From: Caldicellulosiruptor saccharolyticus DSM 8903
GTDB taxonomy: Bacteria > Bacillota > Thermoanaerobacteria > Caldicellulosiruptorales > Caldicellulosiruptoraceae
Assembly: GCF_000016545.1 (NCBI RefSeq)
Contig: NC_009437.1
Span: 1,219,501 to 1,283,500 of the forward strand
Length of the DNA stretch: 64,000 bases
Reading direction: 5' to 3'
Shown here: positions 26,549 through 45,227 of the stretch, piece by piece
How the letters are laid out: each line of letters opens with the position of its first letter
Numbering within the stretch: position 1 is the stretch's first letter
The notes under the pieces: model-generated
Databases searched by the model: none
What the model was told of the DNA's origin: nothing
The model's input: only the letters and a program-made list of their open reading frames with translations
Program-made: the position numbers and the translations under genes

Positions 26549-27691
26549 ATGCAATACAGAGATTTTGGGAAAACAGGCATGAGAACATCTCTTCTTGGCG
26601 TTGGTGCGATGAGACTTCCTATCATTGGTGAAGATGCATCTCAAATAGATGAAGAAAAGGCAATAGAGATGATAAGGTTTGCCATCGAGCATGGTGTGAA
26701 TTACGTTGATACTGCATATCCATATCATGGAGGGAACAGCGAAAAGGTAGTTGGAAAAGCTTTGCAAAATGGTTACAGAGAAAAGGTCTTCCTTGCAACC
26801 AAGTCTCCTGTATGGCAAGTCGAAAAACACGAAGATTTTGAGAGATTTTTGGATGAGCAGCTGGAAAAACTTCAAACTGACCATGTGGACATGTACCTTA
26901 TGCACGCTCTCAACAAAGAGAGATGGGAAAAAATAAAGGCTTTGAGGTTCTTCGAATTCTTTGAAAAAGCAAAGGCACAAGGGAAAATAAGATTTGCAGG
27001 GTTTTCCTTCCATGACAAATACCCCACATTTAAAGAGATAGTGGATGGTTATGATGGATGGGATTTTTGCCAAATCCAATTAAACTACATGGATGTCAAC
27101 TACCAGGTAGGCGTCAGAGGCTTAAAGTACCCTGCTTCCAAGGGACTTGCAGTAGTGATAATGGAACCACTAAAGGGTGGAAAACTTGCAAAACTACCAC
27201 GGAAAGTGCAAGACATTCTCAAAAGAAGTGGGAAAAACTGGTCTGCAGTAGAGTGGAGTTTAAGATGGCTTGGAAACTTTCCGGAGGTTTCTGTTATACT
27301 AAGTGGAATGAGCACTTTGGAACATGTGAAAGAGAATGTTGAAATCATGAAAAATGTAACCCCCAACAACTTGACTGAAGAAGACTTGAAAATGATTGAG
27401 GAAGCAAGAAAGACACTGGGGTCTTTTGCAGTGATAAACTGCACAGAATGTGGCTACTGCATGCCGTGTCCAAGCGCTGTTGATATTCCCGAAAATTTCA
27501 GACTGTATAATGAAACTGTTATGTTTGGAGATTGGAAAGGTGGAAGAGGAATATACAAATGGCTTGAGGGACAAAAGACAGCTGCATCTTTTTGCAAAGA
27601 GTGTGGGGAGTGCCTTAGTAAGTGTCCGCAAAGATTAGAAATTCCTTCCCTTCTTAAAAAAGTTAACAGTGAACTGACAGAGGTGAAATGA
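26549..27691 (+). CDS. Aldo/keto reductase with C-terminal 4Fe-4S ferredoxin domain
   Basis: 380 residues. The (beta/alpha)8 aldo/keto reductase barrel carries Asp and Tyr of the catalytic tetrad in VDTAYPYHGG and the Lys in ATKSPVW. A C-terminal region holds two cysteine clusters, CTECGYCMPCPSAVDIP and CKECGECLSKCPQRLEIP, suited to iron-sulfur centres. Such fusions are common in anaerobes. The electron source may be ferredoxin or flavodoxin rather than NAD(P)H, and the substrate is unknown. It heads an apparent operon with a flavodoxin (13-base gap) and a cupin. A second protein of the same family is encoded at 49543-50565. Confidence 0.9.
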   Translation: MQYRDFGKTGMRTSLLGVGAMRLPIIGEDASQIDEEKAIEMIRFAIEHGVNYVDTAYPYHGGNSEKVVGKALQNGYREKVFLATKSPVWQVEKHEDFERFLDEQLEKLQTDHVDMYLMHALNKERWEKIKALRFFEFFEKAKAQGKIRFAGFSFHDKYPTFKEIVDGYDGWDFCQIQLNYMDVNYQVGVRGLKYPASKGLAVVIMEPLKGGKLAKLPRKVQDILKRSGKNWSAVEWSLRWLGNFPEVSVILSGMSTLEHVKENVEIMKNVTPNNLTEEDLKMIEEARKTLGSFAVINCTECGYCMPCPSAVDIPENFRLYNETVMFGDWKGGRGIYKWLEGQKTAASFCKECGECLSKCPQRLEIPSLLKKVNSELTEVK

Positions 27692-27704
27692 GGAGGGGCA
27701 GACA

Positions 27705-28234
27705 ATGGCTCATTCCAAAATTCTCATCGCCTATTTTTCTCGTAAAGGGAACAATTATCTCAATGGCAGAATTACAAACTTGCCAATTGGAAATACAGAA
27801 ATAGTAGCTCAAAAAATACAAAAATTAACGGGTGGTGATCTATTCGAAATCAAACCAGCAAAACAGTATCCGGAAGATTATTACGAAACGATAGAAATAG
27901 CAAAAGAAGAAAAAAGAAAAAATGCCAGACCAGAACTAGCAAATAAACTCGATGATATAAGCCCATATGAAGTGGTTTTCCTCGGTTATCCTAACTGGTG
28001 GGGAACAATGCCAATGGCGGTATTTACTTTTTTAGAGTCTTACGATTTTACAGGAAAGACCATTGCTCCGTTTTGCACACATGAAGGAAGTGGACTTGGG
28101 AGCAGTGAAAGGGATATAAAAAAACTGTGCCCAAAAGCAAATGTATTGCCAGGATTAGCTATTAGAGGGAGCAGTGTTACCAAGCTGATAATGATATTCA
28201 AAACTGGTTATCAAGGCTTGGTTTATTAACTTAA
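27705..28234 (+). pseudogene. Flavodoxin with C-terminal frameshift
   Basis: Flavodoxin-like FMN-binding domain with an N-terminal ILIAYFSRKGNN phosphate-binding loop, GYPNWWGTMP, and FCTHEGSGLGSS. The uninterrupted frame ends at 28229 with a poor tail (TKLIMIFKTGYQ). The frame one step away, from about 28181 to 28234, encodes QADNDIQNWLSRLGLLT, the normal ending for this family, so one base is missing near 28176-28183 (GTTACCAA instead of, for example, GTTAACCAA). The core is intact, and loss of the last helix may only weaken the protein. The ribosome-binding site is GGAGGGG. It may exchange electrons with the preceding ferredoxin-type reductase. Confidence 0.8.
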
Positions 28235-28253
28235 AAGAGAGGTGAGGATTCAA

Positions 28254-28667
28254 ATGGATGGAGCTAAAAAACCAATTTTTCCATTAGGTACTAAAGTCCA
28301 AAATAGCTATTTTATTGGAACCGTTTGGGTTGAAACATTAGTAGCTTATGATAAAACTATGAACTGTGCAATTTATAATGTTACTTTTGAGAAAGGTGCA
28401 AGGAATAATTGGCACAGGCACCCAGGTGGACAAATTTTATTGATTACTGGTGGGAAAGGGTATTATCAAGAGGAAGGAAAGGTTGCAAGGATAATAAAGA
28501 AGGGAGATGTTGTTGTAATTCTGCCAAATGTGAAACACTGGCATGGTGCAGTGCCAGATAGTTTTCTTTCTCATATTGCCATTACAACAAACCCTGATAA
28601 AGGCGAAGTAGAATGGTTAGAACCTGTTGATGATGAATACTATTTTCAACTTAAATCTGAGCAGTGA
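28254..28667 (+). CDS. Cupin-domain protein
   Basis: 137 residues folding as one conserved beta-barrel cupin. Motif 1 is in NWHRHPGGQILLITGGKGYYQEE (metal-binding His, His, Gln/Glu), and motif 2 is in GDVVVILPNVKHWHGAVPD. The ATG at 28254, with GAGGTGAGG just before it, is preferred to the in-frame GTG at 28242. It resembles carboxymuconolactone-decarboxylase-associated or quercetinase-like cupins, but the reaction is unknown. It is last in the aldo/keto reductase-flavodoxin operon and is followed by a terminator. Confidence 0.85.
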   Translation: MDGAKKPIFPLGTKVQNSYFIGTVWVETLVAYDKTMNCAIYNVTFEKGARNNWHRHPGGQILLITGGKGYYQEEGKVARIIKKGDVVVILPNVKHWHGAVPDSFLSHIAITTNPDKGEVEWLEPVDDEYYFQLKSEQ

Positions 28668-28722
28668 AAAGTTCAGTAAAGTTTTTGCTTTGATATGTAA
28701 ATTATTAAAAAATTATTCAGTT

Positions 28723-28755
28723 TAGGCTCTTTTTAAAGGAGCCTATTTTTTTGTT
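28723..28755 (+). terminator. Terminator after the cupin gene
   Basis: Stem TAGGCTC / GAGCCTA (7 bp) with a short loop, then a run of T residues. Confidence 0.85.
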
Positions 28756-28808
28756 TTGTTTGTTTGCTAACAATGAATTAAAATAGGTATTTAGGAGGTG
28801 TGTAAATA

Positions 28809-29212
28809 TTGACAATAACAGAAGTTAGCAAGAAATATGGTATTTCAGCTCATACACTTCGATATTATGAGCGAATTGGTTTGATACCTAAAGCAAAAAA
28901 AATGAAAATGGAATTAGGTATTATACAGAAGAAGACTGCAGATGGATTGAATTTATACTATGTATGCGAAAGGCTGGGGTTGAAATTGAGACACTACTTG
29001 AGTATGTAAATCTTCTACACCGAGGTGATGAAACAATAGAGCAAAGAAGGCAACTTTTGATAAAACAAAGAGATAAACTTATTTTGCGAATGGAAGAGAT
29101 AAAAAAGGCTTTGGAGAAGCTAAATTACAAAATTAAAGATTATGAATCAAAAATTGTTCCTGTAGAGAAGGATTTGATGAAGTTGAATTTTAATAGAAGC
29201 TTAATGGATTAG
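28809..29212 (+). pseudogene. MerR-family regulator, frameshifted
   Basis: The TTG start at 28809, after AGGAGG, gives the MerR helix-turn-helix TITEVSKKYGISAHTLRYYERIGLIPKA. The frame then fails in an eight-A run at 28895-28902. In the neighbouring frame the protein continues as NGIRYYTEEDCRWIEFILCMRKAGVEIETLLEYVNLL and the usual coiled-coil to 29212. Adding one A restores a normal regulator of about 135 residues, with the dimerisation helix at about 80-115. This class usually controls oxidoreductase or stress genes. Being next to the redox operon, it was probably that operon's regulator. Slippage in the A run, either in the cell or in sequencing, is the likely cause. Confidence 0.85.
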
Positions 29213-29428
29213 GGTCTCAAATAATCTGTTTGGTTGCTTTTAGCTATACAGGATAATTTTAAAATTTGAATTTCAAAAATCCAACAAAAAGTTAGAATTT
29301 TTATGACAAATATTTCAATGAAACGTTAATGTTAAAATTGTATAATCTGACATTAGATATGAGGAAAAAACTCAATTAACTAACATTGTTTACACCAAAC
29401 TTGGTTGGGCAATTGAAAGGAGGGTAAA

Positions 29429-29469
29429 GGCTTAGTTTATAAATAGCAGTATCATAGATAAACTAAGCC
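29429..29469 (+). promoter_or_regulatory. Perfect 12-bp inverted repeat between the ribosome-binding site and start of an MFS gene
   Basis: GGCTTAGTTTAT (29429-29440) and ATAAACTAAGCC (29458-29469) are perfect complements around a 17-base loop. A strong AAAGGAGGG lies directly upstream (29416-29424), but the MFS start codon (29476) is behind the hairpin. Folding would bring the two closer together or block initiation. There is no T tract, so it is not an ordinary terminator. Confidence 0.7.
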
Positions 29470-29475
29470 ACAAAA

Positions 29476-30651
29476 ATGGCCATACTTTTATTAGCTTTTA
29501 TTTACATATCGTTTATTAGTTTAGGCTTACCTGACTCAATGTTAGGCGCTGCTTGGCCTGTTATAAGAAGCGATTTGAATTTGCCAGTTTATACGGCTGG
29601 TATTATTTCTTTGACCATAACATGTTCCACTGTTGTTTCAAGCATGTTAAACCCATTTATCGTAAAGAAAATAGGGACAGGTAAAATTGTTGTTATAAGT
29701 ACCTTATTTTCTTCTATTGGACTATTTACTTTTTCACATGCACCTTCATTTGTTTTCCTGGGCCTTAGTGCAGTACTTATAGGCTTAGGAGGAGGAAGTA
29801 TTGATGCAGCTTTGAATAATTTTGTAGCTTTGCATTATCAGGCAAAACATATGAATTGGCTGCACTCGTTGTGGGGTGTTGGGACAACTTTAGGTTCTTA
29901 TATAATTTCGATTTTTATAGTATATCCAGAGGGTTGGAGAAAGGGATATTTAGTTGTTTCGGCGTTTCAACTTTTGTTAGCAACGTTATTTTTTATTTTG
30001 CTTCCGGTGTGGAATATATATGAAAAAGACAATAATAATAAAAGCTCAAATATTAGGAAAAATGAGCGCAAAAAATCATTGCTGTTTGCAAGTGCAGCAA
30101 TATCAATAATTACATTTTTCTTCTATTGTGCTATTGAAACCACGACAGGGTTGTGGGCAAGCAGTTTTTTAGTAAATTACAAACATATTCCTCCTTCTAT
30201 TGCTGCAAAAGGAACATCTTCCTTTTTCTTTGGAATAACAATAGGGAGAATTTTGTCTGGATTTGTGAGCATGAAGTTGAGCGGTAAAAAAATTATCAGG
30301 TTATCCTTGGCTTTATTATTCACTGGTATTTTTGTTTTATTAACAGATGTTCCACAAATGATCTACTTATTTGGTTTTGCACTAATTGGTTTTGGCTGTG
30401 CACCTATCTTTCCTACAATGATGCATGAAACGCCAAAAAGATTTGGTGAGGATATTTCGCACATTGTAATAAGTATGCAAATGGCTGCCGGATATTTGGG
30501 CAGCGCACTTGCTCCTTTGCTATTTGGAATTGTTATATCAATGATTGGAGTTTATGTGTTACCATTATATCTGCTGATCTTGCTTTTTATTTTGACGCTT
30601 TTTACAGAGCTATTAAATTATCAGTTAAATAAAAAAGCAGAAGGTTTGTAG
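29476..30651 (+). CDS. MFS transporter
   Basis: 391 residues with 12 predicted membrane segments in two halves around a charged loop at about 190-205. The start LLAFIYISFISLGLPDSMLG and the GLGGGSIDAALNNFVALHY segment mark the FucP/YfkF-like branch of the major facilitator family often seen next to sugar genes. The substrate is unknown. The first Met lies almost at the first membrane segment, and the only good ribosome-binding site is about 50 bases upstream, beyond an inverted repeat. The true N-terminus or its control is therefore unusual. An AraC-type regulator and a GH3 glucosidase follow on the same strand. Confidence 0.85.
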   Translation: MAILLLAFIYISFISLGLPDSMLGAAWPVIRSDLNLPVYTAGIISLTITCSTVVSSMLNPFIVKKIGTGKIVVISTLFSSIGLFTFSHAPSFVFLGLSAVLIGLGGGSIDAALNNFVALHYQAKHMNWLHSLWGVGTTLGSYIISIFIVYPEGWRKGYLVVSAFQLLLATLFFILLPVWNIYEKDNNNKSSNIRKNERKKSLLFASAAISIITFFFYCAIETTTGLWASSFLVNYKHIPPSIAAKGTSSFFFGITIGRILSGFVSMKLSGKKIIRLSLALLFTGIFVLLTDVPQMIYLFGFALIGFGCAPIFPTMMHETPKRFGEDISHIVISMQMAAGYLGSALAPLLFGIVISMIGVYVLPLYLLILLFILTLFTELLNYQLNKKAEGL

Positions 30652-30691
30652 CAAATTCTTTCTGATTTTTATAATACATTTACAAATTTAT

Positions 30692-30720
30692 TTTGGTAAG
30701 ATGAAAAAATGTTGTATAAT
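30692..30720 (+). promoter_or_regulatory. Possible promoter of the AraC regulator
   Basis: A good -10, TATAAT (30715-30720), with a weak -35, TTTGGT (30692-30697), at 17 bases. It lies 20-35 bases before the regulator start. Confidence 0.4.
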
Positions 30721-30755
30721 ATATTTAGAAACCTTAACAAATGGTGAAAGTATTT

Positions 30756-31760
30756 ATGTTTGTAGTTAATATTCAAACTCAAAAAAAAGATAAAGATTCA
30801 ACTGCTCAAAAATGCATTTACGAGGTTATAGACTTTGATGATAGATTGCCTTTAAAGATATTTTATCACAATCTTCCGTTTGTTCAACATCACTGGCACG
30901 AAGCGTTAGAGTTGATTTTCGTTGTTTGTGGTAATGTGACTGTTGTCAAGAATGGAATGATATATAAGTTAGGTAGTGAAGATATATTATTGGTTAACTC
31001 CAATGAAATTCATACGACATATTTGGATAATAGTGGTATTATTCTTGTTCTTCAAATATCCTCACGTTTTATTAAAGAAAATACAGGTGTTGAGAAAATC
31101 ACATTTAATTCACTGTTCTCAATTCCTGAGAGTAAGTTTGATGTTGATAAAGTAAATGAAATAAAGAAATCTGTGCTTGAAATTATGCTTTTGCATAATA
31201 AAAAAGCTGAAAGTGTAGGCCTTGAAATAAAAAGTAAATTATATCATTTATTATATTTGCTGACTTCTTATTTTAAAGATAACTGTGAAAAAATCTCTTT
31301 GGAAGAGAAAAAGGAATGCCAGAGAGAAAGATTGCAAAGAATTATTAAACTTATCGATGAAAATTATGACACTATTTCTGTTAATGAAATAGCAAGAAGG
31401 GAACATCTAAGCCTCTCATATCTATCAAAATATTTCAAAAATAATGTTGGTATAACGTTGAAAGAATATATAACCAAAAAACGATTAGAACATGCTGTGA
31501 AAGACATTCTAAATACTGATTTATCATTACTCGAAATAGCACTAAAAAATGGATTTTCTGATGAAAAATTATTAATCAAATGCTTTAAGGAACACTATAA
31601 TATGACTCCTTCTCAATTTAGAAAAATGTACAGAACTTTTTCAATAGGCGATAAAAGTTGTTTTAGTTATTTGAATATTTTTGAAGACATGACATTGTCA
31701 CTAGAAATATTTAAAAGGTTAGAGAGTTTAGTAAGTAAATACAAGCAGATGTCAAATTGA
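30756..31760 (+). CDS. AraC-family transcriptional regulator
   Basis: Sugar-sensing regulator. The N-terminal cupin-like domain (about 20-110) carries HHWHEALELIFVVCG and the metal/sugar pocket pattern. A linker follows, then two C-terminal helix-turn-helices (about 195-295) with ISVNEIARREHLSLSYLSKYFKNNVG and the AraC signature IALKNGFSDEKLLIKCFKEHYNMTPSQFRK. An extra tail of about 40 residues follows. ATG 30756 has GGTGAAAG in front and is preferred to ATG 30741. It likely controls the MFS transporter before it or the GH3 gene after it. Confidence 0.85.
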   Translation: MFVVNIQTQKKDKDSTAQKCIYEVIDFDDRLPLKIFYHNLPFVQHHWHEALELIFVVCGNVTVVKNGMIYKLGSEDILLVNSNEIHTTYLDNSGIILVLQISSRFIKENTGVEKITFNSLFSIPESKFDVDKVNEIKKSVLEIMLLHNKKAESVGLEIKSKLYHLLYLLTSYFKDNCEKISLEEKKECQRERLQRIIKLIDENYDTISVNEIARREHLSLSYLSKYFKNNVGITLKEYITKKRLEHAVKDILNTDLSLLEIALKNGFSDEKLLIKCFKEHYNMTPSQFRKMYRTFSIGDKSCFSYLNIFEDMTLSLEIFKRLESLVSKYKQMSN

Positions 31761-31954
31761 AATGATATGTTCAAGAATCTAATTTTAACGGACTTATAAA
31801 GAGATGGTACAGGTCCTATTTTTTATTGTATTTCAAAAAAGAACAAGTAACATAGAAAACATCGAACAGACAAAAAAGGTTTAATATAAATTTAGTAACT
31901 ATTAAAAAATACACAATTACAACCCAGAAATAAATCCAAGGGGGGCTTTAGAAA

Positions 31955-34207
31955 ATGTCAGATAAAATAAAAGAGTTGATATCAAAAATGACCCTTGAAG
32001 AAAAAGCAAGCTTGTGTTCAGGGTTTGATGCATGGCACACAAAAGCTATTGAAAGATTAGGCATACCTTCAATAATGATGACAGATGGACCCCATGGAGT
32101 AAGAAAATCTAATGGATTTAATTTGAACGAAACTGTACCATCCACCTGTTTTCCAACAGCAGCATGTATGGCGAGCTCATGGGATAGGAATTTACTACAA
32201 GAAGTTGGGGCGGCAATTGGTAAAGAGTGCCAAGCTGAGGGTGTTTCGATTCTTTTAGGACCTGGTGTAAATATCAAACGTACACCACTTTGTGGAAGAA
32301 ATTTCGAATATTATTCGGAAGACCCGCTCCTGTCTTCCGAATTAGCAGCTTCATTTATTAAAGGTGTACAAAGCCAGGGCGTAGGGACTTCTATCAAACA
32401 TTTTGCTGCTAACAATCAAGAGTATAGAAGGCTTGTAGTTGATGCAAGGGTTGATGAGAGAACACTTAGAGAGATTTACCTTGCAAGTTTTGAGAAGGCT
32501 ATAAAAGAAGCAAAGCCATGGACAGTAATGGCTGCATACAATAAAGTCAATGGTGAATATTGTACTCAAAATGAGTATCTTCTTACAAAGATTTTAAAAG
32601 AAGAATGGGGATTTGAAGGGGTTGTTGTTTCTGATTGGGGAGCAGTTGATGATAGAGTAAAAGCTTTAGAAGCAGGACTTGATCTGCAGATGCCAGGAAA
32701 CGGAGGCATAGATGATAAAAAGATTGTAGAGGCAGTGAAAAGTGGAAAGCTTTCAGAAGAAGTACTTGATAGAGCTGTGGAAAGAATACTCAAAATAGTT
32801 TTTAAGGCAGTAGAGAATAAAAAAGAAGGTTTTACTTATGATAAAGAGGCTCATCATGAATTAGCAATTAAAGTTGCAAGAGAAAGCATGGTACTTTTAA
32901 AGAATGAGGATAACATCTTGCCTTTAAAAGCTCAAGGCACAATTGGAATCATTGGCGGCTTTGCAAAACAGCCACAATATCAGGGTGGTGGTAGTTCTCA
33001 TCTAAATCCAACAAAGTTATCTATTCCTCTTGATGAGATATTGAATATTGTAGGAGACAAGGCAAAAGTTTTGTATGCCCAGGGTTATGATTTGCAAACT
33101 GGCGAGACAAATGTCAATTATATTTCAGAAGCAAAAGAAGTAGCAAAGAAGTCTGATGTTGTTGTAATCTTTGCAGGTCTTCCAGAAAGTTTTGATTCTG
33201 AAGGGCTTGATAGGCAGCATTTAAAATTACCAGACGGACATAATATAATCATAAATGAAGTTCTTAAAGAAAATAGCAATGTTGTAGTTGTATTGATGAA
33301 TGGTTCGGCAGTTGAAATGCCATGGATAGATAAAGTAAAAGGTATTTTTGAATGTTATTTAGCAGGCCAAGGCGTTGGTAAAGCTATTGCTGAGCTTTTA
33401 TTCGGAATTGCTAATCCTTGTGGTAAGTTAGCCGAAACTTTTCCAATAAAACTTAGCGACAATCCAGCACATTTAAACTACCCAGGTGAAAAAGATAGAG
33501 TTGAATACCGCGAAGGGCTATTTGTTGGTTATAGATATTATGATAAAAAAGAAATGGATGTGCTTTTCCCATTTGGATATGGATTGAGTTATACTAAATT
33601 TGATTATCTTGACATTAGAGTGGATAAAAAAGAGTTAGATGAAAATCAAATTTTGAAAGTTTTTGTTAGAGTCAAAAATAGTGGAAAAATAGCAGGAAAA
33701 GAGATTGTTCAAATATATGTAAGCAAAAAAGAGAGTAATGTAATGCGACCAGAAAAGGAATTAAAAGCATTTAAAAAAGTTTACTTAGAACCTGGTGAAG
33801 TAAAAGAGATAGAATTTACCCTTGATAAAAGAGCTTTTGCATATTATGAAGTGGATGTTCAAGATTGGTATGTTGAAGAAGGTGAGTATAATATTTTGGT
33901 TGGAAAATCTTCAAGAGATATTGTTTTGAGTGAGAAAGTATATGTAAAATCCCTGAGAAAATTGCCAAAAACATATACAAGAAATACAATTTTATATGAT
34001 TTAAAAGATGACCCTAAAGGTAAAGAAATTTATAATGAAATTGTTGAAATGATTAAAAAGAGTTTTAATTTTTCTTCTTCAAATGCTGATGATACGATTA
34101 TGATGTTTCTATTGCAAACTCCTTTAAGGAGCTTGGTTTCATTTACTCGAGGATTGATTAGTGGAGAAAAAATTGAAATGTGGCTCAGGGAGTTAAATAA
34201 GCAGTAA
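31955..34207 (+). CDS. GH3 beta-glucosidase (or related beta-glycosidase)
   Basis: 750 residues with no signal peptide, so cytoplasmic. The GH3 N-terminal barrel (about 1-300) has the nucleophile Asp227 in VVVSDWGAV and the KHFAANNQE substrate-binding loop. The (alpha/beta)6 sandwich follows (about 310-540), and a fibronectin-III-like domain (about 580-660) is reached through FPFGYGLSYTKF. A C-terminal extension of about 80 residues is typical of clostridial enzymes. The ribosome-binding site is GGGGGG. It cleaves glucose (or xylose) from the non-reducing end of beta-linked oligosaccharides. The upstream AraC regulator and downstream two-component sugar system suggest control by a hemicellulose-derived sugar. 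Exact specificity needs an assay. Confidence 0.92.
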   Translation: MSDKIKELISKMTLEEKASLCSGFDAWHTKAIERLGIPSIMMTDGPHGVRKSNGFNLNETVPSTCFPTAACMASSWDRNLLQEVGAAIGKECQAEGVSILLGPGVNIKRTPLCGRNFEYYSEDPLLSSELAASFIKGVQSQGVGTSIKHFAANNQEYRRLVVDARVDERTLREIYLASFEKAIKEAKPWTVMAAYNKVNGEYCTQNEYLLTKILKEEWGFEGVVVSDWGAVDDRVKALEAGLDLQMPGNGGIDDKKIVEAVKSGKLSEEVLDRAVERILKIVFKAVENKKEGFTYDKEAHHELAIKVARESMVLLKNEDNILPLKAQGTIGIIGGFAKQPQYQGGGSSHLNPTKLSIPLDEILNIVGDKAKVLYAQGYDLQTGETNVNYISEAKEVAKKSDVVVIFAGLPESFDSEGLDRQHLKLPDGHNIIINEVLKENSNVVVVLMNGSAVEMPWIDKVKGIFECYLAGQGVGKAIAELLFGIANPCGKLAETFPIKLSDNPAHLNYPGEKDRVEYREGLFVGYRYYDKKEMDVLFPFGYGLSYTKFDYLDIRVDKKELDENQILKVFVRVKNSGKIAGKEIVQIYVSKKESNVMRPEKELKAFKKVYLEPGEVKEIEFTLDKRAFAYYEVDVQDWYVEEGEYNILVGKSSRDIVLSEKVYVKSLRKLPKTYTRNTILYDLKDDPKGKEIYNEIVEMIKKSFNFSSSNADDTIMMFLLQTPLRSLVSFTRGLISGEKIEMWLRELNKQ

Positions 34208-34228
34208 ATGAAATAAAAAGTTTGCTGG

Positions 34229-34252
34229 GGCTGCTATTATGCAGCCTTTTTT
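34229..34252 (+). terminator. Terminator after the GH3 gene
   Basis: Stem GGCTGC / GCAGCC around TATTAT, followed by six T residues. Confidence 0.85.
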
Positions 34253-34353
34253 GTTTAGAAATGATAGTAAATTATTCTATGTGAGATGGATAGGTTATAG
34301 ATGTTATAATAAAATTAGTGAAAAATTTTTAACAAAAGAAATGGGTGATGATT

Positions 34354-36168
34354 ATGAGTTTTAGTAAAAAATTATTCTTAGCTTATTCGCTATTAATTAT
34401 ATTTTTGGCATTTATTGTAGGCATTGCATTCTATACATATAATCTTCGCGTGATGGAGGAAGATGTTGTAGCAAAATTAAATGCAGTTTCAGACAAGGTT
34501 GCACAAGAAGTTTCAAGTTTATTGAATCAAATGGATTTTATAATAGACTTTTTGATATCTAACAATGATTTTGTAGAATCAACAATAACACTTAACGCAC
34601 TGAATAGAAAGAATAATAGTAATCTAGTATACGTGAATGAAGCAAAAAAAACAATCGAAGGAATACTTTATAATTATCTTATAATTAGAAGGTTTTATAG
34701 AGTAAGCTATTTTAATAAGAAGGGGGATTTTATTACAAGTAATTTTAAGTCTCCATTTCCTCAGGAGGACAGGGTAAACCAGTTGATTAATAAAACAAAG
34801 TGGTTTACCTTGTCAGAAAAAGTGCAAGGAAATATAATAATACCTCAATATTATGACCCATGGCGTGATGATAAAAATGTGAAAGTTTTTTCAAAAGTGC
34901 GTTTCTTAGGTGGATATGAAAACGGATTAGGTTACATAGAGGTTCAAATGTTGTATTCGAATATAGAGAATATTTTTAATGATGAATCTTTAAAAAATGT
35001 AAAAATATTAATGACAGCTGATAAAAATGTATTTTATGCACGTAATATATCAGAAACAGAGATGAAAGATTATTATAAACTTTTAAGCAAATTTACTAAT
35101 GTAGAAATAGATTTTAGCAGTCTTGATAAAAATGACAATGAACTAATAGCGATAAGATATTTACCTAAACAAAAAATTGCTATTTTTTTAATTTTTGATA
35201 GAACATTGATTGAACGCCCATTAAAAATTAGTAGAAATTCTGTTTTGCTCTTTGGATTACTTATTATATTTATTTCACTCTTTTTTATATACTTTATGAC
35301 TAACCAATTTACCAAACCTATTCGCGAGCTCAAGAGTAAAGTGGACAAAATTAACATAAATAATCTTAGCCAAAGAATTGTATTGGAAAATACAAATGAT
35401 GAAATTAAAGCATTAAATAAAGCCTTTCAGAATTTATTAGATAGGTTAAATGAAGCAATAAATAAAGAAATGAAATACAAGTTATTACAGATGAAAGCAA
35501 ATCTTGAAGCGCTGCAAGCTCAGGTCAATCCCCATTTTATTTACAATATACTTAATATCATTTCGCACAGGGGTTTGCTTAACAAAGACAAAGAGATTTG
35601 CGAAATTTGCAGTAGTTTAGCTTCAATGCTTAGATATTCAACTTCAGCAAGTAGTAGAATTGCTACATTAAAAGACGAGGTTGAGCATGTTAGAAATTAT
35701 CTGAATCTTATGAAAAAAAGATATGAAGATAAATTAGAATATTTTATGGAATTTCAAGAAGAGGTTTTAAATCAAAGGGTTCCAAAGCTTATTTTACAAC
35801 CGATTGTAGAAAATTCGTTTGCTCATGGTTTTGAGAACAAAACTGATAAAATGAAGGTTTGGATTAAAGGGTATGAAAAGGATAACTGGTGGTACGTTGA
35901 GGTAAAAGATAATGGACAAGGTTTTGATGATGAAGCACTTATAAACATTAAAAGAGAAATTGAAAATATCAAAAGGAGTTTCAATTATAACGAAGAAATA
36001 GAAGGATTTGAGATTGGTAAAATTGGACTTTTAAATACATATGCGCGGATGATGATATTTTATAAAAATAAATTTGTTTTTGATATAGGTAATAGTAATG
36101 AAAATGGTGGTGCTGTTGTATTGTTGGGTGGTGAGATTGAAGTAAATCGTGAGGAAGGTGAAAGATAA
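34354..36168 (+). CDS. Sensor histidine kinase of the YesM/LytS type
   Basis: 604 residues. Membrane segment 1 is at about 6-28, an extracytoplasmic sensor domain at about 29-285, segment 2 at about 290-312, and a HAMP linker at about 315-370. The His_kinase domain has the phospho-acceptor His394 in QVNPHFIYNILN, and the ATPase domain carries the N-box ILQPIVENSFAHGF and DNGQGFDD. ATG 34354, with GGGTGATG upstream, is preferred to GTG 34345. YesM-type kinases usually sense oligosaccharides and regulate an adjacent CUT1 sugar ABC transporter through a YesN regulator. The next gene starts directly after the stop but is itself abnormal, lacking the regulator's DNA-binding domain. Confidence 0.92.
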   Translation: MSFSKKLFLAYSLLIIFLAFIVGIAFYTYNLRVMEEDVVAKLNAVSDKVAQEVSSLLNQMDFIIDFLISNNDFVESTITLNALNRKNNSNLVYVNEAKKTIEGILYNYLIIRRFYRVSYFNKKGDFITSNFKSPFPQEDRVNQLINKTKWFTLSEKVQGNIIIPQYYDPWRDDKNVKVFSKVRFLGGYENGLGYIEVQMLYSNIENIFNDESLKNVKILMTADKNVFYARNISETEMKDYYKLLSKFTNVEIDFSSLDKNDNELIAIRYLPKQKIAIFLIFDRTLIERPLKISRNSVLLFGLLIIFISLFFIYFMTNQFTKPIRELKSKVDKININNLSQRIVLENTNDEIKALNKAFQNLLDRLNEAINKEMKYKLLQMKANLEALQAQVNPHFIYNILNIISHRGLLNKDKEICEICSSLASMLRYSTSASSRIATLKDEVEHVRNYLNLMKKRYEDKLEYFMEFQEEVLNQRVPKLILQPIVENSFAHGFENKTDKMKVWIKGYEKDNWWYVEVKDNGQGFDDEALINIKREIENIKRSFNYNEEIEGFEIGKIGLLNTYARMMIFYKNKFVFDIGNSNENGGAVVLLGGEIEVNREEGER

Positions 36169-38142
36169 ATGAGACTAAAAGTTTTAATTGTTGATGATGA
36201 ACCAGCAGCAATTAAGTATTTGTTGACAATATTTCAAGAATATTCAAAAGACTTTGAGATAGCTGATATTGCTCAAGATGGTGAGGAGGCATTAAAAAAA
36301 ATAGAGAAAAGTGAGCCTGATATAGTTATAACAGATATTAAAATGCCTCTTTGTAATGGACTTGACCTTGTATCAAAGGCAAAAATTAAGTTTCCTGATA
36401 TTGAATATGTTTTAATAAGCGGATATAAGGATTTTGAATATGCCCAGAGAGCAATTCGCGAGGGAGTTTGTGACTATGTTTTAAAACCCATAGATGTGGA
36501 TAGTTTTGTTAATCTCTTAAATCGTTTGAAAGAAAAAATAGAGAAGAAATATTATGACAAACAAATATTACTATTAAAGAAAATAATAGCTGATATCAAA
36601 ATAGATGAGAAAGAAATAAAAAAGTTTCTACCATGGGATAAATATTTCTTATGCATATTGAGAGAAGGAGGTATTCCTCTCAAGTATTCTTCAAAGACAA
36701 AATTTATTAACGAAATTAATTTTGAAACAGCATCGGAAATTAGTCCGTCTAAATTTGAAAATGCTTTATATTGGCAGTTTTTTGGACGAGATGACCAAGA
36801 GTTAATACTAATAACGCCAGATACAGGTAATAAACTGACAGTAGTTGAGTTATTTAAAAAAATTTTTGAGAGCAAAAAAGACGGAGGACTTTATTTTACA
36901 AGTGTGATTGTAGATTATTCCTTTGAATTATTTCAGTTAAAAGACATGCTTATGAAAACTTTAAGGTTTTTGGATTTAAATATTGTACTTGGATATACAC
37001 AAATTATACACTACAACCCAAATAATAGTAGCAGTACTTTATTAAGTAAAGAAAGTGATATTAATCAAAGAGAAATTGAAAAGAAATTCTCATATTATAT
37101 TTCAAATTTGATGGTAGAGAGTTTAGAAAAGGAATTAGAGAGAGTTTTAGATAAATTGAAAGAACAAAAAGTTCCACTTATTATAGTTAGTAGTTTATTT
37201 CGCAATGTAATAATATTTGCAGCAGAACAATTAAATTCAGAAATGAAAAGATATGATATTGAATATATCTTAGATGAATTGATATCTACAAGTAAGCGAG
37301 GTGGAATTATGAGAGCACAGAAAATAAAGCGAAGTATTGCAGAAGTTATTGCTTTAGCTTTGGTATTAATAATTTATGGTATCCCATTCTTCTTTATATT
37401 CATTAACTCTGTGAAGAGTAAAGGCGAAGCAGCAAGTTTAGACTTGAGTTTTCCTAAACAGGTGCTTTTAATAGAAAATTATAAATCAGTTTTAGCTGAA
37501 CAGGATGGAGTTGTTGTCAGAGCATTTATAAATAGTACATTGATTACAGTATTTTCAGTGATAGTTTTAGTTTTTGTTGCATCAATGACAGGATTTATAA
37601 TACAAAGGAGAAAAAATAAAACTATGACATTTATAAGTTTTTTGATTTTAATTGGTTTAATACTTCCGCCATCTGTTGTTCCCACAATATGGATATTAAA
37701 ATTATTAGGACTTTTCAAAACTCTGCCAGGGATTGTTTTGATTGAAGTTGCTTTAGGTTTGCCGTTTGCAACACTGCTTTATAGTAATTTCTTATCAACA
37801 ATTCCTCAAGAGATAGACGAAAGCGCACTGATAGATGGTTGTAATAGCTATCAGCTATTTTTCCGAATAATATTTCCTTTGTTAAAGCCAGTTACAGCCA
37901 CAATAGTAATATTATCTTCAATATCTATTTATAATGATTTTGTAAACCCTCTTTACTTTTTACCAGGTGCTGAAAATCCAACAGTTCAATTAACTTTATA
38001 TAATTTTATGAGTAGATACAATACATCTTGGAACTTACTCTTTGCGGATGTTGTTTTGATTTCTATACCTCCATTAATATTGTTTATATTCTTCAACAGA
38101 AAAATAATAAGTGGAATGGTGGCAGGGGCTATAAAGGCTTAA
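36169..38142 (+). CDS. Response regulator (YesN-like) lacking its HTH, fused in frame to a CUT1 sugar ABC permease
   Basis: Residues 1-120 are a receiver domain with the acidic pair Asp9/Asp10, phospho-acceptor Asp56 in ITDIKMP, and the VLKP lysine. Residues 120-380 match the middle region of YesN regulators, but the C-terminal AraC helix-turn-helix is absent. Residues 381-657 are a complete MalG-type permease (six membrane segments; coupling loop ESALIDGCNSYQLFFRIIFPLL, the EAA motif). The permease Met at 37309 has its own GAGGTGG site, so it could also be made separately. The gene order expected in this family is regulator, solute-binding protein, permease 1, permease 2. An in-frame deletion removing the regulator's end, the binding protein and permease 1 explains the fusion. 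The remaining protein can neither bind DNA nor form a full transporter alone. Confidence 0.88.
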   Translation: MRLKVLIVDDEPAAIKYLLTIFQEYSKDFEIADIAQDGEEALKKIEKSEPDIVITDIKMPLCNGLDLVSKAKIKFPDIEYVLISGYKDFEYAQRAIREGVCDYVLKPIDVDSFVNLLNRLKEKIEKKYYDKQILLLKKIIADIKIDEKEIKKFLPWDKYFLCILREGGIPLKYSSKTKFINEINFETASEISPSKFENALYWQFFGRDDQELILITPDTGNKLTVVELFKKIFESKKDGGLYFTSVIVDYSFELFQLKDMLMKTLRFLDLNIVLGYTQIIHYNPNNSSSTLLSKESDINQREIEKKFSYYISNLMVESLEKELERVLDKLKEQKVPLIIVSSLFRNVIIFAAEQLNSEMKRYDIEYILDELISTSKRGGIMRAQKIKRSIAEVIALALVLIIYGIPFFFIFINSVKSKGEAASLDLSFPKQVLLIENYKSVLAEQDGVVVRAFINSTLITVFSVIVLVFVASMTGFIIQRRKNKTMTFISFLILIGLILPPSVVPTIWILKLLGLFKTLPGIVLIEVALGLPFATLLYSNFLSTIPQEIDESALIDGCNSYQLFFRIIFPLLKPVTATIVILSSISIYNDFVNPLYFLPGAENPTVQLTLYNFMSRYNTSWNLLFADVVLISIPPLILFIFFNRKIISGMVAGAIKA

Positions 38143-38247
38143 AGATAATTTCATAATGATTTAAGTATATAAATCAATTATTGGTAATTGAGAAATTGTA
38201 TTTGATTGATTAAAATCAATCATAAGAAAAACAAAGGAGAATGCAAA

Positions 38248-39679
38248 ATGGTATTAGAAATAAAAGAAGTCAAATGTGAATATAGAAAAAATCCAATAGG
38301 GCTTGGGACAAAAAAACCAAGATTTTCGTGGATAATAAATTCTGATATACCTGCAACAAAGCAGACAGCATATCAGATGGTGTTTGCAAGAGATGAAAAT
38401 TTTGAGGATATAATTTATGATACAGGTATTATATCTTCTGAACAATCAGTCCATGTGGAATATAATGGCCCTGAGCTTGAAGAATGTCAGAGATATTATT
38501 ATAAAGTTAGAATATGGGATAACCATGGCAATGTTTCAGATTGGTCAAAAACGAATTATTTTGAAGTAGGAATTCTTGATAACAGTAAATGGATAGCTGA
38601 TTGGATATCAACATATGATGATGACAACTGCGAAAGGTCACCATATTTTAGATATAGATTTGAGGTAAGAAAACCTCTAAAAAGAGCCATACTATATGCA
38701 ACAGCACTCGGGTTATACGAAGCTTGGCTAAATAACAAAAGAGTAAGTGACTATTACTTTACACCAGGTTGGACATCTTATCATAAAAGAATTCAGTATC
38801 AGGCCTATGATGTTACTCAAGATATTAAAATAGGACAGAATGTGATAGGTGCAATTTTAGGAGCAGGCTGGTATAAAGGAACATTAGGGTGGGAAGGCAA
38901 GAAAAATATCTACGGAGATAGATTGGCTTTTTTGGCACAATTGCATCTTTATTATGCAGATGGAACTGAAGAGATAATTTCTACTGATGAAAAGTGGGAA
39001 TATAAATTGGGACCAATTTTATTTTCTGAATTTTATGATGGTGAGATTTATGATGCACGTCTGGAACTGCAAGAATGGATGAATCCAGCACTTTATGATA
39101 AAGACTGGAAAAAGGCTAAAGTTATAGAATACAGAAAAGATATATTAGTAGCTCAGGAGAATATTCCAGCAAGAAAAATGGAAGTAATCAAGCCAGTAGC
39201 TATTATTACAACTCCCAAGAGAGAAACTGTTATAGATTTTGGACAGAATATGGTGGGTTTTGTTAGATTTAAAGTTAAAGGAAATGCTGGAGATAGAGTT
39301 GTGCTAAAACATGCAGAGGTATTAGACAAAGAGGGAAATTTTTACACTGATAATCTCAGAAAAGCAAAGCAAACTATTGAATATATTTTAAAAGGCGATT
39401 ATGAAGAGATATTTGAGCCTCACTTTACTTACCAAGGTTTTAGATATGTAAAAGTTGAAGAATATCCAGGAAAGGTTGATATAAACAATTTTGAAGGGAT
39501 TGTGATCTATTCAGGGATGGAAACAACAGGAGAATTTGAATGTTCAGATGATCTTGTAAATAGACTTCAAAAGAATATAGTATGGAGTCAGAAAGGAAAT
39601 TTTGTTGATGTTCCAACAGATTGTCCACAAAGAGACGAAAGACTTGGGTGGACAGGAGATGCTCAGGTGTTTATTAAAA
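38248..39679 (+). pseudogene. GH78 alpha-L-rhamnosidase, 5' part interrupted by an insertion sequence
   Basis: The start ATG 38248 has an AAAGGAG site. The frame encodes the N-terminal Ig-like and beta-sandwich domains of bacterial GH78 enzymes and enters the (alpha/alpha)6 catalytic barrel. It stops being host sequence right after the catalytic motif DCPQRDERLGWTGDAQVF, where Asp, Arg and Glu of the family's active site lie. Reading on, 18 residues of IS sequence follow to a stop at 39732. The 3' part resumes at 40938. No signal peptide is present. It would remove L-rhamnose from pectin or glycoside fragments inside the cell. The insertion, with a 15-base target duplication, is clean, so the gene is disrupted but could be restored by exact excision. 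Confidence 0.9.
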
Positions 39680-40772
39680 GGTACGTGGTGAAGACATATT
39701 TACCACCAAATTTATTACAGAACAGAGAATAGAAGGTGCCTACTTTTTTCATAATATCCTCAAGAAGTAATGTAGGAAATTGAAATATATGGGAGGAGAC
39801 CAGAGATTTTGAAGCTATGAATTTTTCGAATGGTGTCCTCCCGTTCATTCCTTTACCATTATGAGGTCTGAAAAAGTTCCATGTATCTTGCCATTTCTGG
39901 GCTCTTTGAATAAATTCATCTTTTGTTTTACATCTTTCAGCATGAATCATTAAAAAATACTCATCATCAGCTCTATGTGAATTTTCAATTATACCCATTA
40001 AATGCTTTGCTTTTGGTGGAATAGGATTTAGTTCTACACCCAAAAATGACAGCATCTCATTCCACTGCTTTAACTTTCTTTCGCTTCCTCCACAAAATTC
40101 TGCTCCATTGTCTAATCGGATCTTTATTATATTTCTTACATTATGAGTTCTTAACCATAATGCAACTAAGGATATGAACATAAATCCAAAAGCGGATGAA
40201 AGTTCGTAAGAATAGGCTGTAAATCTTGTTCTTGTTGCAACATCTATTATGTTCCACTCATAGCAAGGCAAATTGTATCTTTTCATATGTTCATATACCT
40301 CCTTGGGAAGACTTTCTTTGTCTAAAAGATGTTTTGTATCAAGCTGAAATTCAGAAAATGGGATAAGAGTTTCATAATCGTATAGACTTCTTTCACCTTT
40401 TTTTGTTCTTTTTGTTTTTCGAGCTACAGAGTTTCTTCTAAGAATTGACTTTATTGTGTTTTCACTTATTTTGATACCATATTTTCTGAGAAGATAAAAA
40501 GACAAACGTCTATATCTAAAACCAGTTTTTTTAGACTCTTCGACAATAAAATTTTCGAGTTCAGAAGAAAGCTTTTTGGGAGAAGATTTAGGTTTTTTTG
40601 ATTTATCTTCAAGAGGACCGTAGACAGCTCTTCTTACGGTATGTCTTGATACACCTAATATTTTAGCAGTTTTTGATACGTTTTTGTTATTTGATTCAAA
40701 GACTTTTCGAACTAATTCTCTAGCTTTTTGAGGGGATATTTTTCTTAGTTCGTGGTATGATATAATATTCAT
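39663..40772 (-). CDS. DDE transposase of IS copy 1 (IS1202-like)
   Basis: Start at 40772 (MNIISYHELRK), with GGGAGGA upstream. An N-terminal helix-turn-helix (VSKTAKILGVSRHTVRRAVYG) is followed by an rve/DDE core with Asp in FQLDTKHLLD, Asp in IRLDNGAEFCGG, and Glu in IENSHRADDEYF. The reading frame has no stop inside the element: it runs through the end at 39680 and terminates in the target DNA at 39663, adding the host-encoded residues LLINT. The sequence is otherwise the same as copy 2, and both look active. Confidence 0.88.
   Translation of the reverse strand: MNIISYHELRKISPQKARELVRKVFESNNKNVSKTAKILGVSRHTVRRAVYGPLEDKSKKPKSSPKKLSSELENFIVEESKKTGFRYRRLSFYLLRKYGIKISENTIKSILRRNSVARKTKRTKKGERSLYDYETLIPFSEFQLDTKHLLDKESLPKEVYEHMKRYNLPCYEWNIIDVATRTRFTAYSYELSSAFGFMFISLVALWLRTHNVRNIIKIRLDNGAEFCGGSERKLKQWNEMLSFLGVELNPIPPKAKHLMGIIENSHRADDEYFLMIHAERCKTKDEFIQRAQKWQDTWNFFRPHNGKGMNGRTPFEKFIASKSLVSSHIFQFPTLLLEDIMKKVGTFYSLFCNKFGGKYVFTTYLLINT
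39665..39679 (+). repeat. Target-site duplication, left copy, of IS copy 1
   Basis: AGGTGTTTATTAAAA, repeated exactly at 40938-40952 on the other side of the element. Confidence 0.85.
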
Positions 40773-40937
40773 AGTAGGCTGTCCTCCCATCCTGGTAGTT
40801 TTTCTATTTTTCTTTTGAATATTAGATTACACTTTTTAATTATATCAAACAGGAGGGAGGCAGCCTCAACTCTTTTTATGAAATTTTCTTCTTCGTACAT
40901 TCTTTCGCTGTGGTAAATATCTCTACACCTATTCGAG
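39680..40937 (-). mobile_element. IS1202-like insertion sequence, copy 1
   Basis: 1258 bases, bounded by an exact 15-base target duplication. The ends are imperfect inverted repeats: GGTACGTGGTGAAGACATAT on the left against CTCGAATAGGTGTAGAGATA on the reverse complement of the right, both running into ATATTTACCAC. An apparently identical element lies at 43970-45227 in opposite orientation. The long duplication (14-15 bases) and a transposase with a helix-turn-helix plus an rve-type DDE domain fit the IS1202/ISTde1 group. Family placement is from memory. Confidence 0.85.
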
Positions 40938-42208
40938 AGGTGTTTATTAAAACAGCTTGCTTTAATATGGATGTTGCACTTTTCTTCACCAAGTGGTTGC
41001 ATGATTTGGCAGCAGACCAGTTTGAAAATGGTGGTGTGCCTTTTGTAATTCCAAATATTTTCTTTTCCAAAACTCAATCATTCGGAGATGAACATTCTTC
41101 TTCAGCTTGGGGTGATGCCGCAACAATCTGCCCATGGACTATTTACCAGTATTATGCAGACAAAAGGCTTCTTGAGCAGCAATATCAAAGTATGAAAAAG
41201 TGGGTTGAATATATTAGAAAACAGGGAGACAATGAATATTTGTGGAATACTGGCTTTCACTTTGGCGATTGGGTTGCATTAGATACTATAGAAGGAAGCT
41301 ATATTGGTGCCACACCAAAGGATTTGATTGCTACTGCATTTTATGCATATTCAACATGGATATTGAGTCAAACAGCTAAGGTTTTGGGCTATGTTGAAGA
41401 TGTTGAGGAGTATACAAAACTATATCACAACATTGTAACAGAGTTTAGGAAAGAATTTGTAACACCAAATGGAAGACTTGCTGCACATACACAAACTGCT
41501 CACGTTTTGGCTTTAATGTTTGATTTGCTTGAAAAGAAAGACGTTGAAAAGAATGTTGAAATGCTAATTGAACTACTAAAAGAAATAGATATTACGGATG
41601 CAAGCAAGGTAGATTATGCACTGACAACTGGGTTTGTAGGCACTCCATATTTGTGTCATGTATTGACAAAGTATGGACGAAGTGATATTGCATTAAAGCT
41701 TTTGCTTCGAAAGAAATATCCATCTTGGTTATATCAAGTATTAAAAGGTGCGACAACTATATGGGAACATTGGGACGGAATAAAAGAAGATGGAACATTT
41801 TGGGATGCGAATATGAATTCGTTTAATCACTATGCTTATGGTTCAATTGGTGACTGGATGTATAGTGTAGTAGGTGGACTAAATATCTTAGAACCTGGAT
41901 TTAAGAAATTTTTAATTAAACCTTATTTTGAGTATTTTAATTACGTTAAGTTAAAATATAAATCTATGTACGGTGATATTTTTGTTAGGTGGGAAAAACA
42001 AGTTAATAGTATAAAACTTGAGTTAATTGTTCCTGCAAACACAGAGGCAATTGTGGAACTTGAAAAGATTGATACTGATACTTTTAAAATATTGAGTCAA
42101 GAAAATTCAGGCTCCGAAACAGGGATAAAAGATATTACAATAAATGAAAATATTATTAAGATATCAATTGGTTCAGGTAACTACAAATTTGAATTTAAGA
42201 AAATATGA
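40938..42208 (+). pseudogene. GH78 alpha-L-rhamnosidase, 3' part
   Basis: Continues the rhamnosidase after the insertion sequence. Codons GTG TTT ATT AAA ACA follow the duplicated target, so removing the element and one copy of the duplication restores the frame exactly. It encodes the rest of the (alpha/alpha)6 barrel (WLHDLAADQFENGGVPFVIP, then WGDAATICPWTIYQYYADK) and the C-terminal beta domain ending near LIKPYFEYFNYVK. The open frame reaches back to 40910 within the IS, so a GTG there could start a fragment. That fragment lacks the catalytic motif and would be inactive. Confidence 0.88.
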
Positions 42209-42292
42209 GGAATGTAAATGGAGCGGTTTTGAGCCGCCCTATTTTTAAAATTTACTTTATTATAATGTTGATACTGGGAGTGATTATGCCCT

Positions 42293-43063
42293 ATGCTTGC
42301 ATTAGAGAGGCAACAAAAGATATTGTCGTTGTTATTTTCCAAAAAAAGTGTAAAGGTTAGTAAACTTAGTGAAATATTTAATGTGTCACCAGAGACAGTA
42401 ATGAATGATTTAAAGAAATTTGAGAAAGAAGGCATAATAATAAAAGCATATGGTGGGGCAGTTTTGAAAGAGGGATTTGAAAAGAAATTCAATCATTTTG
42501 AGGAAGAAGTTAAGGACCAGTTTTTAACAGAAGCAGAAAGGTTGGCAAGTGCGATAGTAAGGGAAATCGAAGAAGGTAGCGTAATTGTTCTTGACAACAG
42601 TGAAGTTTCTTTAGAAATAGCAAAGAAGATAAAGGAAAAGGGAATAGGAATAACTGTTATAACGAATTATGTAAAGGTTGTAAATGAACTAATGGATGAA
42701 AAGAATGTTGAGCTAATTTGTGTAGGTGGAAAGCTTGACAGGAAAACAGGTTCATATATTGGGATGTTAGCACAGGAATTTGTAAAAGGTTTGAGAGCAG
42801 ACAAAGCAATTATTAGCTGCACAGGTTTTAGCTTAGAAAAAGGTGTAACAGAGGACGATGAGATTGTGGCAAGTACAAAAAAGACCTTGGCAAAGGTTGC
42901 AAGTGAAGTTGTATTAGCTGTTATGGAAACAAATTTCAAGAAAAACGGTACTATAAAGTGTATTGATATTGATAGCATAAGTTTTGTGTTTTCAACAGTA
43001 ACTTTACCAAAAGAAATTGAAAAGTATCTTTGGTATAAAGACATAAAGATAAAATATTGTTAA
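42293..43063 (+). CDS. DeoR-family transcriptional regulator
   Basis: 256 residues. The N-terminal winged helix-turn-helix (QQKILSLLFSKKSVKVSKLSEIFNVSPETVMNDLKKFEKEG) is followed by the DeoR sensor domain, with VIVLDNSEVSLEIAK, VITNYVKVVNEL, CVGGKLDRKTGSYIG and ISCTGFSLEKGVTEDDE, a fold shared with ribose-5-phosphate isomerase that binds sugar phosphates. The start has GGGAGTG about ten bases before it. It lies 84 bases after the rhamnosidase. In other bacteria DeoR regulators next to GH78 genes control rhamnose catabolism, so it may sense a rhamnose-derived phosphate. Confidence 0.9.
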   Translation: MLALERQQKILSLLFSKKSVKVSKLSEIFNVSPETVMNDLKKFEKEGIIIKAYGGAVLKEGFEKKFNHFEEEVKDQFLTEAERLASAIVREIEEGSVIVLDNSEVSLEIAKKIKEKGIGITVITNYVKVVNELMDEKNVELICVGGKLDRKTGSYIGMLAQEFVKGLRADKAIISCTGFSLEKGVTEDDEIVASTKKTLAKVASEVVLAVMETNFKKNGTIKCIDIDSISFVFSTVTLPKEIEKYLWYKDIKIKYC

Positions 43064-43553
43064 CATTGAGTAGATGTTCTTAGTTTTTTAATATTGTAAA
43101 AGCTTCAATATAAGCTAATGTATGTAATATGCAAAAAAATAAAATTCTGAAAAAAGCACAATTTATAATATAATATGTTTTTTGTATTTTTATTACAGAG
43201 GACATTGAAATATATTTTGAAAAAAGTAAATAAATATATCATTAGAAAATAATAAAAACGATAAATTTGATATACATTATTAAAACAATGTTGAAAGATA
43301 AGACAAAATTAACAAAAAGCATAAGGAGGAACTGGAGAGACAATGAATGAAAAGAAGTTAAAAACAACAAAAATTTAAACACATACAAGGAATACTTAGA
43401 ATTTACCGTCATAAGTAGTAATGTAGTAAAAAAATTTAGGTTCTTATTTTGTCAAATCCAGTCCTCCCACGCTTTAGATTTTTAAAACTAAAAGAAATAA
43501 AACTATGTTTTAAATACAAAATTCTGTTAATCCTTAGTTCATAAAGTATCGCT
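43064..43553 (+). other. Intergenic region with an abortive gene start
   Basis: 490 AT-rich bases. At 43323-43329 there is a strong AAGGAGG site, and at 43343 an ATG begins MNEKKLKTTKI, stopping at 43378. It looks like the first residues of an exported protein, for example a sugar-binding protein, cut off after 11 codons. Nothing recognisable follows up to the SNF2 fragment. Confidence 0.45.
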
Positions 43554-43969
43554 TTACTCCAACAACTCCAATATTTCCTCTTTTGAAAATTTTCCTATAA
43601 AAGATTGACTTGCTTCGATTAAACTATCAAATAGGTCTTTCTTTTTCTGTTGTAGAACAAGTATTTTCTCTTCTATTGAATTTTTGGTTATAATCTTAAA
43701 TGACTGAACAACATTTTTCTGGCCCAGCCTGTGTGCTCTTGCTGTTGCCTGGTTTTCAACTGCCGGGTTCCACCATGCATCAAAGTGAATAACAACGTCT
43801 GCCCCAGTAATATTGAGTCCAAATCCACCAGCTTTTAGCGAAAGCAAAAAGACATTTCTCTCTCCACTGTTGAACCTGTTCACCATTTCAACTCTGTCTT
43901 CAGCCTTTGTTGTACCGTCTAAATAAAAGTATAAAATCTTTTCCTTGTCAAGCATTTTTTTGATAATAG
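43554..43969 (-). pseudogene. SNF2/SWIM helicase, C-terminal fragment
   Basis: The last part of a SNF2 ATPase, cut off by IS copy 2. It encodes the end of the helicase C-terminal domain, with motif V/VI elements SLKAGGFGLNITGADVVIHFDAWWNP and ATARAHRLGQ containing the arginine finger. The frame agrees with the middle fragment at 45228-46633: removing the IS and one 14-base target copy joins IIYSQWTSMLSIIKK to MLDKEKILYFYLDG without a shift. The open frame extends to 43997 through IS sequence. Confidence 0.9.
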
Positions 43970-45227
43970 CTCGAATAGGTGTAGAGATATTTACCACAGC
44001 GAAAGAATGTACGAAGAAGAAAATTTCATAAAAAGAGTTGAGGCTGCCTCCCTCCTGTTTGATATAATTAAAAAGTGTAATCTAATATTCAAAAGAAAAA
44101 TAGAAAAACTACCAGGATGGGAGGACAGCCTACTATGAATATTATATCATACCACGAACTAAGAAAAATATCCCCTCAAAAAGCTAGAGAATTAGTTCGA
44201 AAAGTCTTTGAATCAAATAACAAAAACGTATCAAAAACTGCTAAAATATTAGGTGTATCAAGACATACCGTAAGAAGAGCTGTCTACGGTCCTCTTGAAG
44301 ATAAATCAAAAAAACCTAAATCTTCTCCCAAAAAGCTTTCTTCTGAACTCGAAAATTTTATTGTCGAAGAGTCTAAAAAAACTGGTTTTAGATATAGACG
44401 TTTGTCTTTTTATCTTCTCAGAAAATATGGTATCAAAATAAGTGAAAACACAATAAAGTCAATTCTTAGAAGAAACTCTGTAGCTCGAAAAACAAAAAGA
44501 ACAAAAAAAGGTGAAAGAAGTCTATACGATTATGAAACTCTTATCCCATTTTCTGAATTTCAGCTTGATACAAAACATCTTTTAGACAAAGAAAGTCTTC
44601 CCAAGGAGGTATATGAACATATGAAAAGATACAATTTGCCTTGCTATGAGTGGAACATAATAGATGTTGCAACAAGAACAAGATTTACAGCCTATTCTTA
44701 CGAACTTTCATCCGCTTTTGGATTTATGTTCATATCCTTAGTTGCATTATGGTTAAGAACTCATAATGTAAGAAATATAATAAAGATCCGATTAGACAAT
44801 GGAGCAGAATTTTGTGGAGGAAGCGAAAGAAAGTTAAAGCAGTGGAATGAGATGCTGTCATTTTTGGGTGTAGAACTAAATCCTATTCCACCAAAAGCAA
44901 AGCATTTAATGGGTATAATTGAAAATTCACATAGAGCTGATGATGAGTATTTTTTAATGATTCATGCTGAAAGATGTAAAACAAAAGATGAATTTATTCA
45001 AAGAGCCCAGAAATGGCAAGATACATGGAACTTTTTCAGACCTCATAATGGTAAAGGAATGAACGGGAGGACACCATTCGAAAAATTCATAGCTTCAAAA
45101 TCTCTGGTCTCCTCCCATATATTTCAATTTCCTACATTACTTCTTGAGGATATTATGAAAAAAGTAGGCACCTTCTATTCTCTGTTCTGTAATAAATTTG
45201 GTGGTAAATATGTCTTCACCACGTACC
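43970..45227 (+). mobile_element. IS1202-like insertion sequence, copy 2
   Basis: 1258 bases, the same length and apparently the same sequence as copy 1 but inverted relative to it. It is flanked by the 14-base direct repeat TTTTTTGATAATAG (43956-43969 and 45228-45241). It splits the SNF2 gene between its helicase motifs III and V. Confidence 0.88.

Follow-up and report, generated by a model that had tools for sequence, protein, structure and literature searches.

An open reading frame (ORF) of Caldicellulosiruptor saccharolyticus DSM 8903 that joins the front of a response regulator in frame to a complete sugar permease is best explained as a chimaera left when a single deletion removed about 2.8 kb from a canonical operon for oligosaccharide uptake, a reading to which we give a probability of roughly 0.93. 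By canonical we mean the gene order kinase, YesN-type regulator, binding protein, MalF-type permease (permease 1), MalG-type permease (permease 2) and GH78. The ORF lies in the window, that is, the whole stretch of 64,000 nucleotides analysed here (positions 1219501-1283500 of a 2,970,275-base single-contig genome). An in-frame deletion scar had been proposed in the first-pass annotation, and three findings support this proposal: in a relative of the same class (G031) the two halves are distinct genes with others lying between, a piece of the lost permease 1 survives at the joint, and the rest of the genome lacks the missing genes. Deletion-made chimaeric ORFs (pseudogenes) are a known kind in bacterial genomes. 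The present ORF resembles them in that two genes are joined by loss of what lay between them, with a remnant of a lost gene at the joint, but it differs from typical examples in that the joined frame has remained open and the start of the downstream gene has been preserved. The features concerned are as follows.

31955-34207, + strand: GH3 glycosidase, an apparently intact member of the cluster (Pfam; 73% DNA identity to G031 in part)
34345-36168, + strand: sensor histidine kinase (HAMP, His_kinase), complete, 607 aa (ORF listing, Pfam; residues 3-602 are 42% identical to the G031 kinase)
36169-38142, + strand: fused ORF, 657 aa, ATG start, no interruption (ORF listing)
36169-37293, + strand: 5' part of a YesN/AraC-type response regulator gene, with receiver and middle region, HTH end lost (Pfam, G031 homology; right edge uncertain, about 37280-37294)
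37283-37294, + strand: zone holding the deletion junction, alignable with the regulator or with the end of permease 1 (sequence comparison with G031)
37295-37312, + strand: relic of the 3' end of the lost permease 1 (MalF type), AGC GAG GTG GAA TTA TGA, that is, SEVEL-stop, in a frame unused by the fused ORF and overlapping the permease 2 ATG
37309-38142, + strand: complete MalG-type sugar permease (permease 2), 277 aa, with its own ATG and AGGTGG upstream (Pfam, similarity to G006 and G031)
38206-39679, + strand: GH78 alpha-L-rhamnosidase gene, 5' part, with the first copy of a 15-bp target duplication at 39665-39679
39680-40937, - strand: IS481-like insertion element of about 1258 bp, its transposase listed as ORF 39663-40790, - strand
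40938-42208, + strand: 3' part of the same GH78 gene, with the second copy of the duplication, AGGTGTTTATTAAAA, at 40938-40952

The fused ORF begins directly after the kinase stop codon. Pfam places Response_reg (82 bits) at residues 5-116 and BPD_transp_1 at residues 473-644, and the receiver and middle region together occupy residues 1 to about 375. The receiver retains DDEP at residue 9, TDIKMP at 55, SGY at 84 and LKP at 105, which represent the acidic pair, the Asp, the Ser/Thr and the Lys of receiver domains and agree with a YesN/AraC-type response regulator; the C-terminal AraC-type HTH that also belongs to this type was not found in the fused ORF by Pfam. In blast comparisons, the fused protein is 33% identical to the G031 regulator over residues 3-383, and its permease half shows full-length similarity over 272 residues to permease 2 of G006, a member of the same genus (66%), and to permease 2 of G031 (63%, residues 385-656), which together with BPD_transp_1 identifies it as a MalG-type permease of the CUT1 group. 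As the halves match two different genes of one G031 operon, a spurious open frame can be dismissed. The permease starts internally at the ATG at 37309-37311, with the Shine-Dalgarno-like AGGTGG ahead of it. A receiver and middle region running into a complete MalG-type permease with a buried start and ribosome-binding site, as first described from the letters alone, is thus what the ORF listing, Pfam and these signals show, and the products estimated then at 75 kDa (fused) and 30 kDa (free permease) have calculated masses of 75.2 kDa and, for the 277 aa from M381, 30.9 kDa. No other permease or binding-protein match was found inside the window, which leaves the permease there without the MalF-type partner and binding protein of a complete CUT1 importer.

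The intact locus that the first-pass annotation had suggested for comparison was found in G031 (L079), which holds GH3, GH78, kinase, a 512-aa regulator, binding protein, permease 1 and permease 2 as separate genes, with Response_reg and HTH_18 (at 429-507) in the regulator, SBP_bac_1 in the binding protein, and two BPD_transp_1 genes. This is an intact oligosaccharide ABC operon of the CUT1 type that carries its own kinase and a YesN/AraC-type regulator. Its kinase, regulator and permease 2 are homologous to those of the window and follow in the same order, and both clusters have GH3 and GH78; the window, however, lacks the HTH of the regulator as well as the binding protein and permease 1, and its GH78 is interrupted. 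The position of GH78 also differs, being after permease 2 in the window and in G006 and between GH3 and the kinase in G031. The locus of G006 (L080) has the order binding protein, permease 1, permease 2, GH78, DeoR-type gene and lies at the same chromosomal place, between smpB/tmRNA and a Snf2-type gene. It shares with the window the order permease 2, GH78, DeoR and these flanking genes, but has an intact binding protein and permease 1, no fusion, and no kinase or regulator in the stretch compared. DNA identity between the two genomes is about 67-70% in permease 2 and GH78, and 89-96% in the flanks. At a separate place, on contig C7 of G012 (L011/L032; 64683-68528 and 63569-67312), a permease match and a kinase match to this operon are no more than 400 bases apart, one on each strand.

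Relative to G031, the stretch missing from the window amounts to 2775 bp. Homology to the regulator fades at LDELISTS, which places the joint at about 37283-37294. In G031, permease 1 ends in AAA AGC GAG GTG GAG TTA TGA and overlaps the permease 2 ATG (ATGA overlap); the counterpart in the window reads GTA AGC GAG GTG GAA TTA TGA, agreeing at 18 of 21 bases, while the next best site on the + strand of the window agrees at 14 of 21. In 18 of 24 permease loci examined on both strands, the place of the relic is taken by a permease 1 end with the pattern E-V-E, E-G-E or E-V-D, then one residue and a stop; in this set of 24, L010 is G031 itself (the source of the query) and several others are near-identical sister loci. 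The 21-mer is also matched at 18 of 21 bases in L115, which is another permease 1 end (REVEL-stop); this match supports the reading of the relic as a permease 1 end, yet it means that the 21-mer is not unique to this operon. The SEVEL-stop relic and the 18 loci place the right break inside the last permease 1 codons, and the left break lies after the middle region of the regulator. By this comparison the window has lost the HTH end of its regulator, the entire binding protein and almost the whole of permease 1. Microhomology at the joint is possible; it should be noted that neither this nor the exact break points can be fixed, because the nearest intact regulator is only 33% identical and the joint bases could belong to either side. 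Permease 2 retains its own start because the surviving permease 1 tail holds its ribosome-binding site, and this tail would carry the site into whichever frame the break joined. The fused frame would be open by accident, since permease 1 and permease 2 overlapped (ATGA) and the break fell in the right phase.

The lost genes were sought in the rest of the genome. With G006 permease 1 as query, no close relative was found among 20 matches, the best being 30% identical. Of these, 18 are MalF-type genes that have their own MalG-type gene no more than 250 bases away, and the remaining two are weak cross-matches with genes of the MalG type, the fused gene being one of them; since all 18 MalF-type genes found adjoin a MalG-type gene of their own, the permease of the fused gene is the orphan. 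Likewise, the G006 binding protein gave seven matches in the genome, none a close relative (26% for the best-scoring), and the HTH of the G031 regulator matched only in other genes. Hence a partner encoded elsewhere in the genome was rejected, there being only distant paralogues for permease 1, the binding protein and the HTH. The HTH is absent from the fused ORF, and the binding protein and first permease, which had been reported as absent from the expected gene order, are missing both at the locus and genome-wide.

The first-pass annotation had also raised a new protein that tethers a receiver to a permease in the membrane, for which we found no positive support and which is unlikely. Under this proposal the ORF would be kept as a 75-kDa membrane protein whose cytoplasmic receiver would be phosphorylated by the neighbouring kinase; the protein would act either as a phosphate sink bound to the membrane or as a phosphorylation-controlled gate for a transporter using the MalF-type subunit of another operon. 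We regard such retention as very improbable, and kinase-driven gating of a borrowed-partner transporter has a similarly slight chance. The frame is open, both parts keep their family motifs, and the adjoining kinase is complete; moreover, the joint lies just before the first strong hydrophobic segment of the permease, so that the topology would allow a receiver in the cytoplasm, provided that the permease has its N-terminus there, as proteins of the MalG-type family do. The interior of the ORF shows no decay, being open through 657 codons with receiver motifs and permease intact, which fits a recent event but also fits a retained protein, and because the ORF holds no further damage a kept, tethered receiver is compatible with the sequence. 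Against this, the permease 1 relic marks the joint as a break point rather than a designed linker, the genome holds no orphan MalF-type partner, and the GH78 gene of the cluster is broken.

Retention is also disfavoured by the distribution of the fusion. The first-pass annotation had held that relatives with the same fused gene, and with other transporter parts encoded elsewhere, would make it a true family, and no such fused gene was found in the 41 relatives, the 398 phylum genomes or the genome contigs collection, among the matches listed. A match spanning both halves occurred in one of the 41 relatives (own genome included) and in one of the 398 phylum genomes (top few candidates per genome scored), in each case the genome of the window, so that among these matches there is no receiver-permease fusion conserved in more than one species. 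With so small a number of candidates scored in each genome, the phylum scan could have missed a distant fusion of independent origin. Several candidates were inspected and rejected. In L054 and L059 the adjacent permease and receiver matches are separate genes in the opposite order, permease then regulator (ORF lists), and in L049, L050, L051 and L067 the receiver match lies thousands of bases from the permease match. Long open frames around permease matches (720, 590, 619, 630, 618, 600, 524 and 431 aa) were inspected in eight regions of six genomes: the permease is a normal-size ORF in G005 (two places), G014 and G203, and in G336 (two places), G211 and G366 the long frames are overlapping ones, as judged by ORF listing alone. 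The parts of the literature available, including PMC8579813 and PMC4187192, contained nothing on a fusion of receiver and permease, nor on this locus, whose tags were guessed from its position in the genome.

The GH78 gene downstream was broken independently of the deletion by an insertion element, which is in keeping with a locus in recent decay. Its transposase resembles IS481 most closely (NF033577, 117.5 bits, below the model cut-off of 224). The genome carries at least 25 identical copies of the element (29 matches listed; best 40 of 100 candidates scored), and this identity suggests recent spread. A second copy in the window (43970-45227), in the opposite orientation, cuts a Snf2-type helicase gene. 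At the fusion joint no copy was found, those of the window lying at 39680 and 43970, and the deletion is for this reason not attributable to the insertion element on this evidence. The same observations bear on the idea that the real genome has an intact operon from which about 2.8 kb was lost by a sequencing or assembly collapse. The species is represented by one genome, so that any polymorphism or assembly comparison is single-strain, and the repeats nearby, with the copy number given above, are of a kind that could favour a collapse; however, there is no insertion element at the joint, which lies in unique coding sequence, and the genome is a single contig with 99.98% completeness, which makes a collapse very improbable. 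Near the Snf2-type gene there is also a transposase-like ORF of another type (46680-47633), across which the matching G006 DNA (L099) is contiguous.

The cluster belongs to an accessory island (window 25316-43969) beside tmRNA/smpB, the tmRNA having been found by search and the smpB and Snf2-type genes having been named from sequence features. Among the 12 genus genomes compared, the gap between smpB and Snf2 is 55 bp in four (G002, G003, G004 and G008), below 200 bp in G001 and G007, and 9-18 kb in G005, G006, G009 and the genome of the window (G000); no Snf2 match was found beside smpB in G010 and G011. The content of this site differs between species, and the cluster is therefore accessory DNA, a setting in keeping with easy loss.

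If the deletion reading is correct, the operon would no longer function as a transporter or as a two-component switch. The kinase could still be produced and would at most phosphorylate a receiver without DNA-binding output, while permease 2 would be left without partner and binding protein. The 75-kDa fused product, a free 31-kDa permease, or both could be translated without a selected role, and a dead operon in early decay is the simplest reading. The broken GH78 enzyme gene nearby and the deletion together therefore speak for ordinary gene decay and not for a new kind of protein, and the fused ORF opens no long-standing question. It does offer a small, clear case in which an overlapping gene pair, with the start signal of the downstream gene inside the upstream one, turns an operon deletion into a clean-looking fusion, and it cautions against taking such ORFs for new multidomain proteins. 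In annotations of this strain, the cluster should not be called a functional sugar importer.
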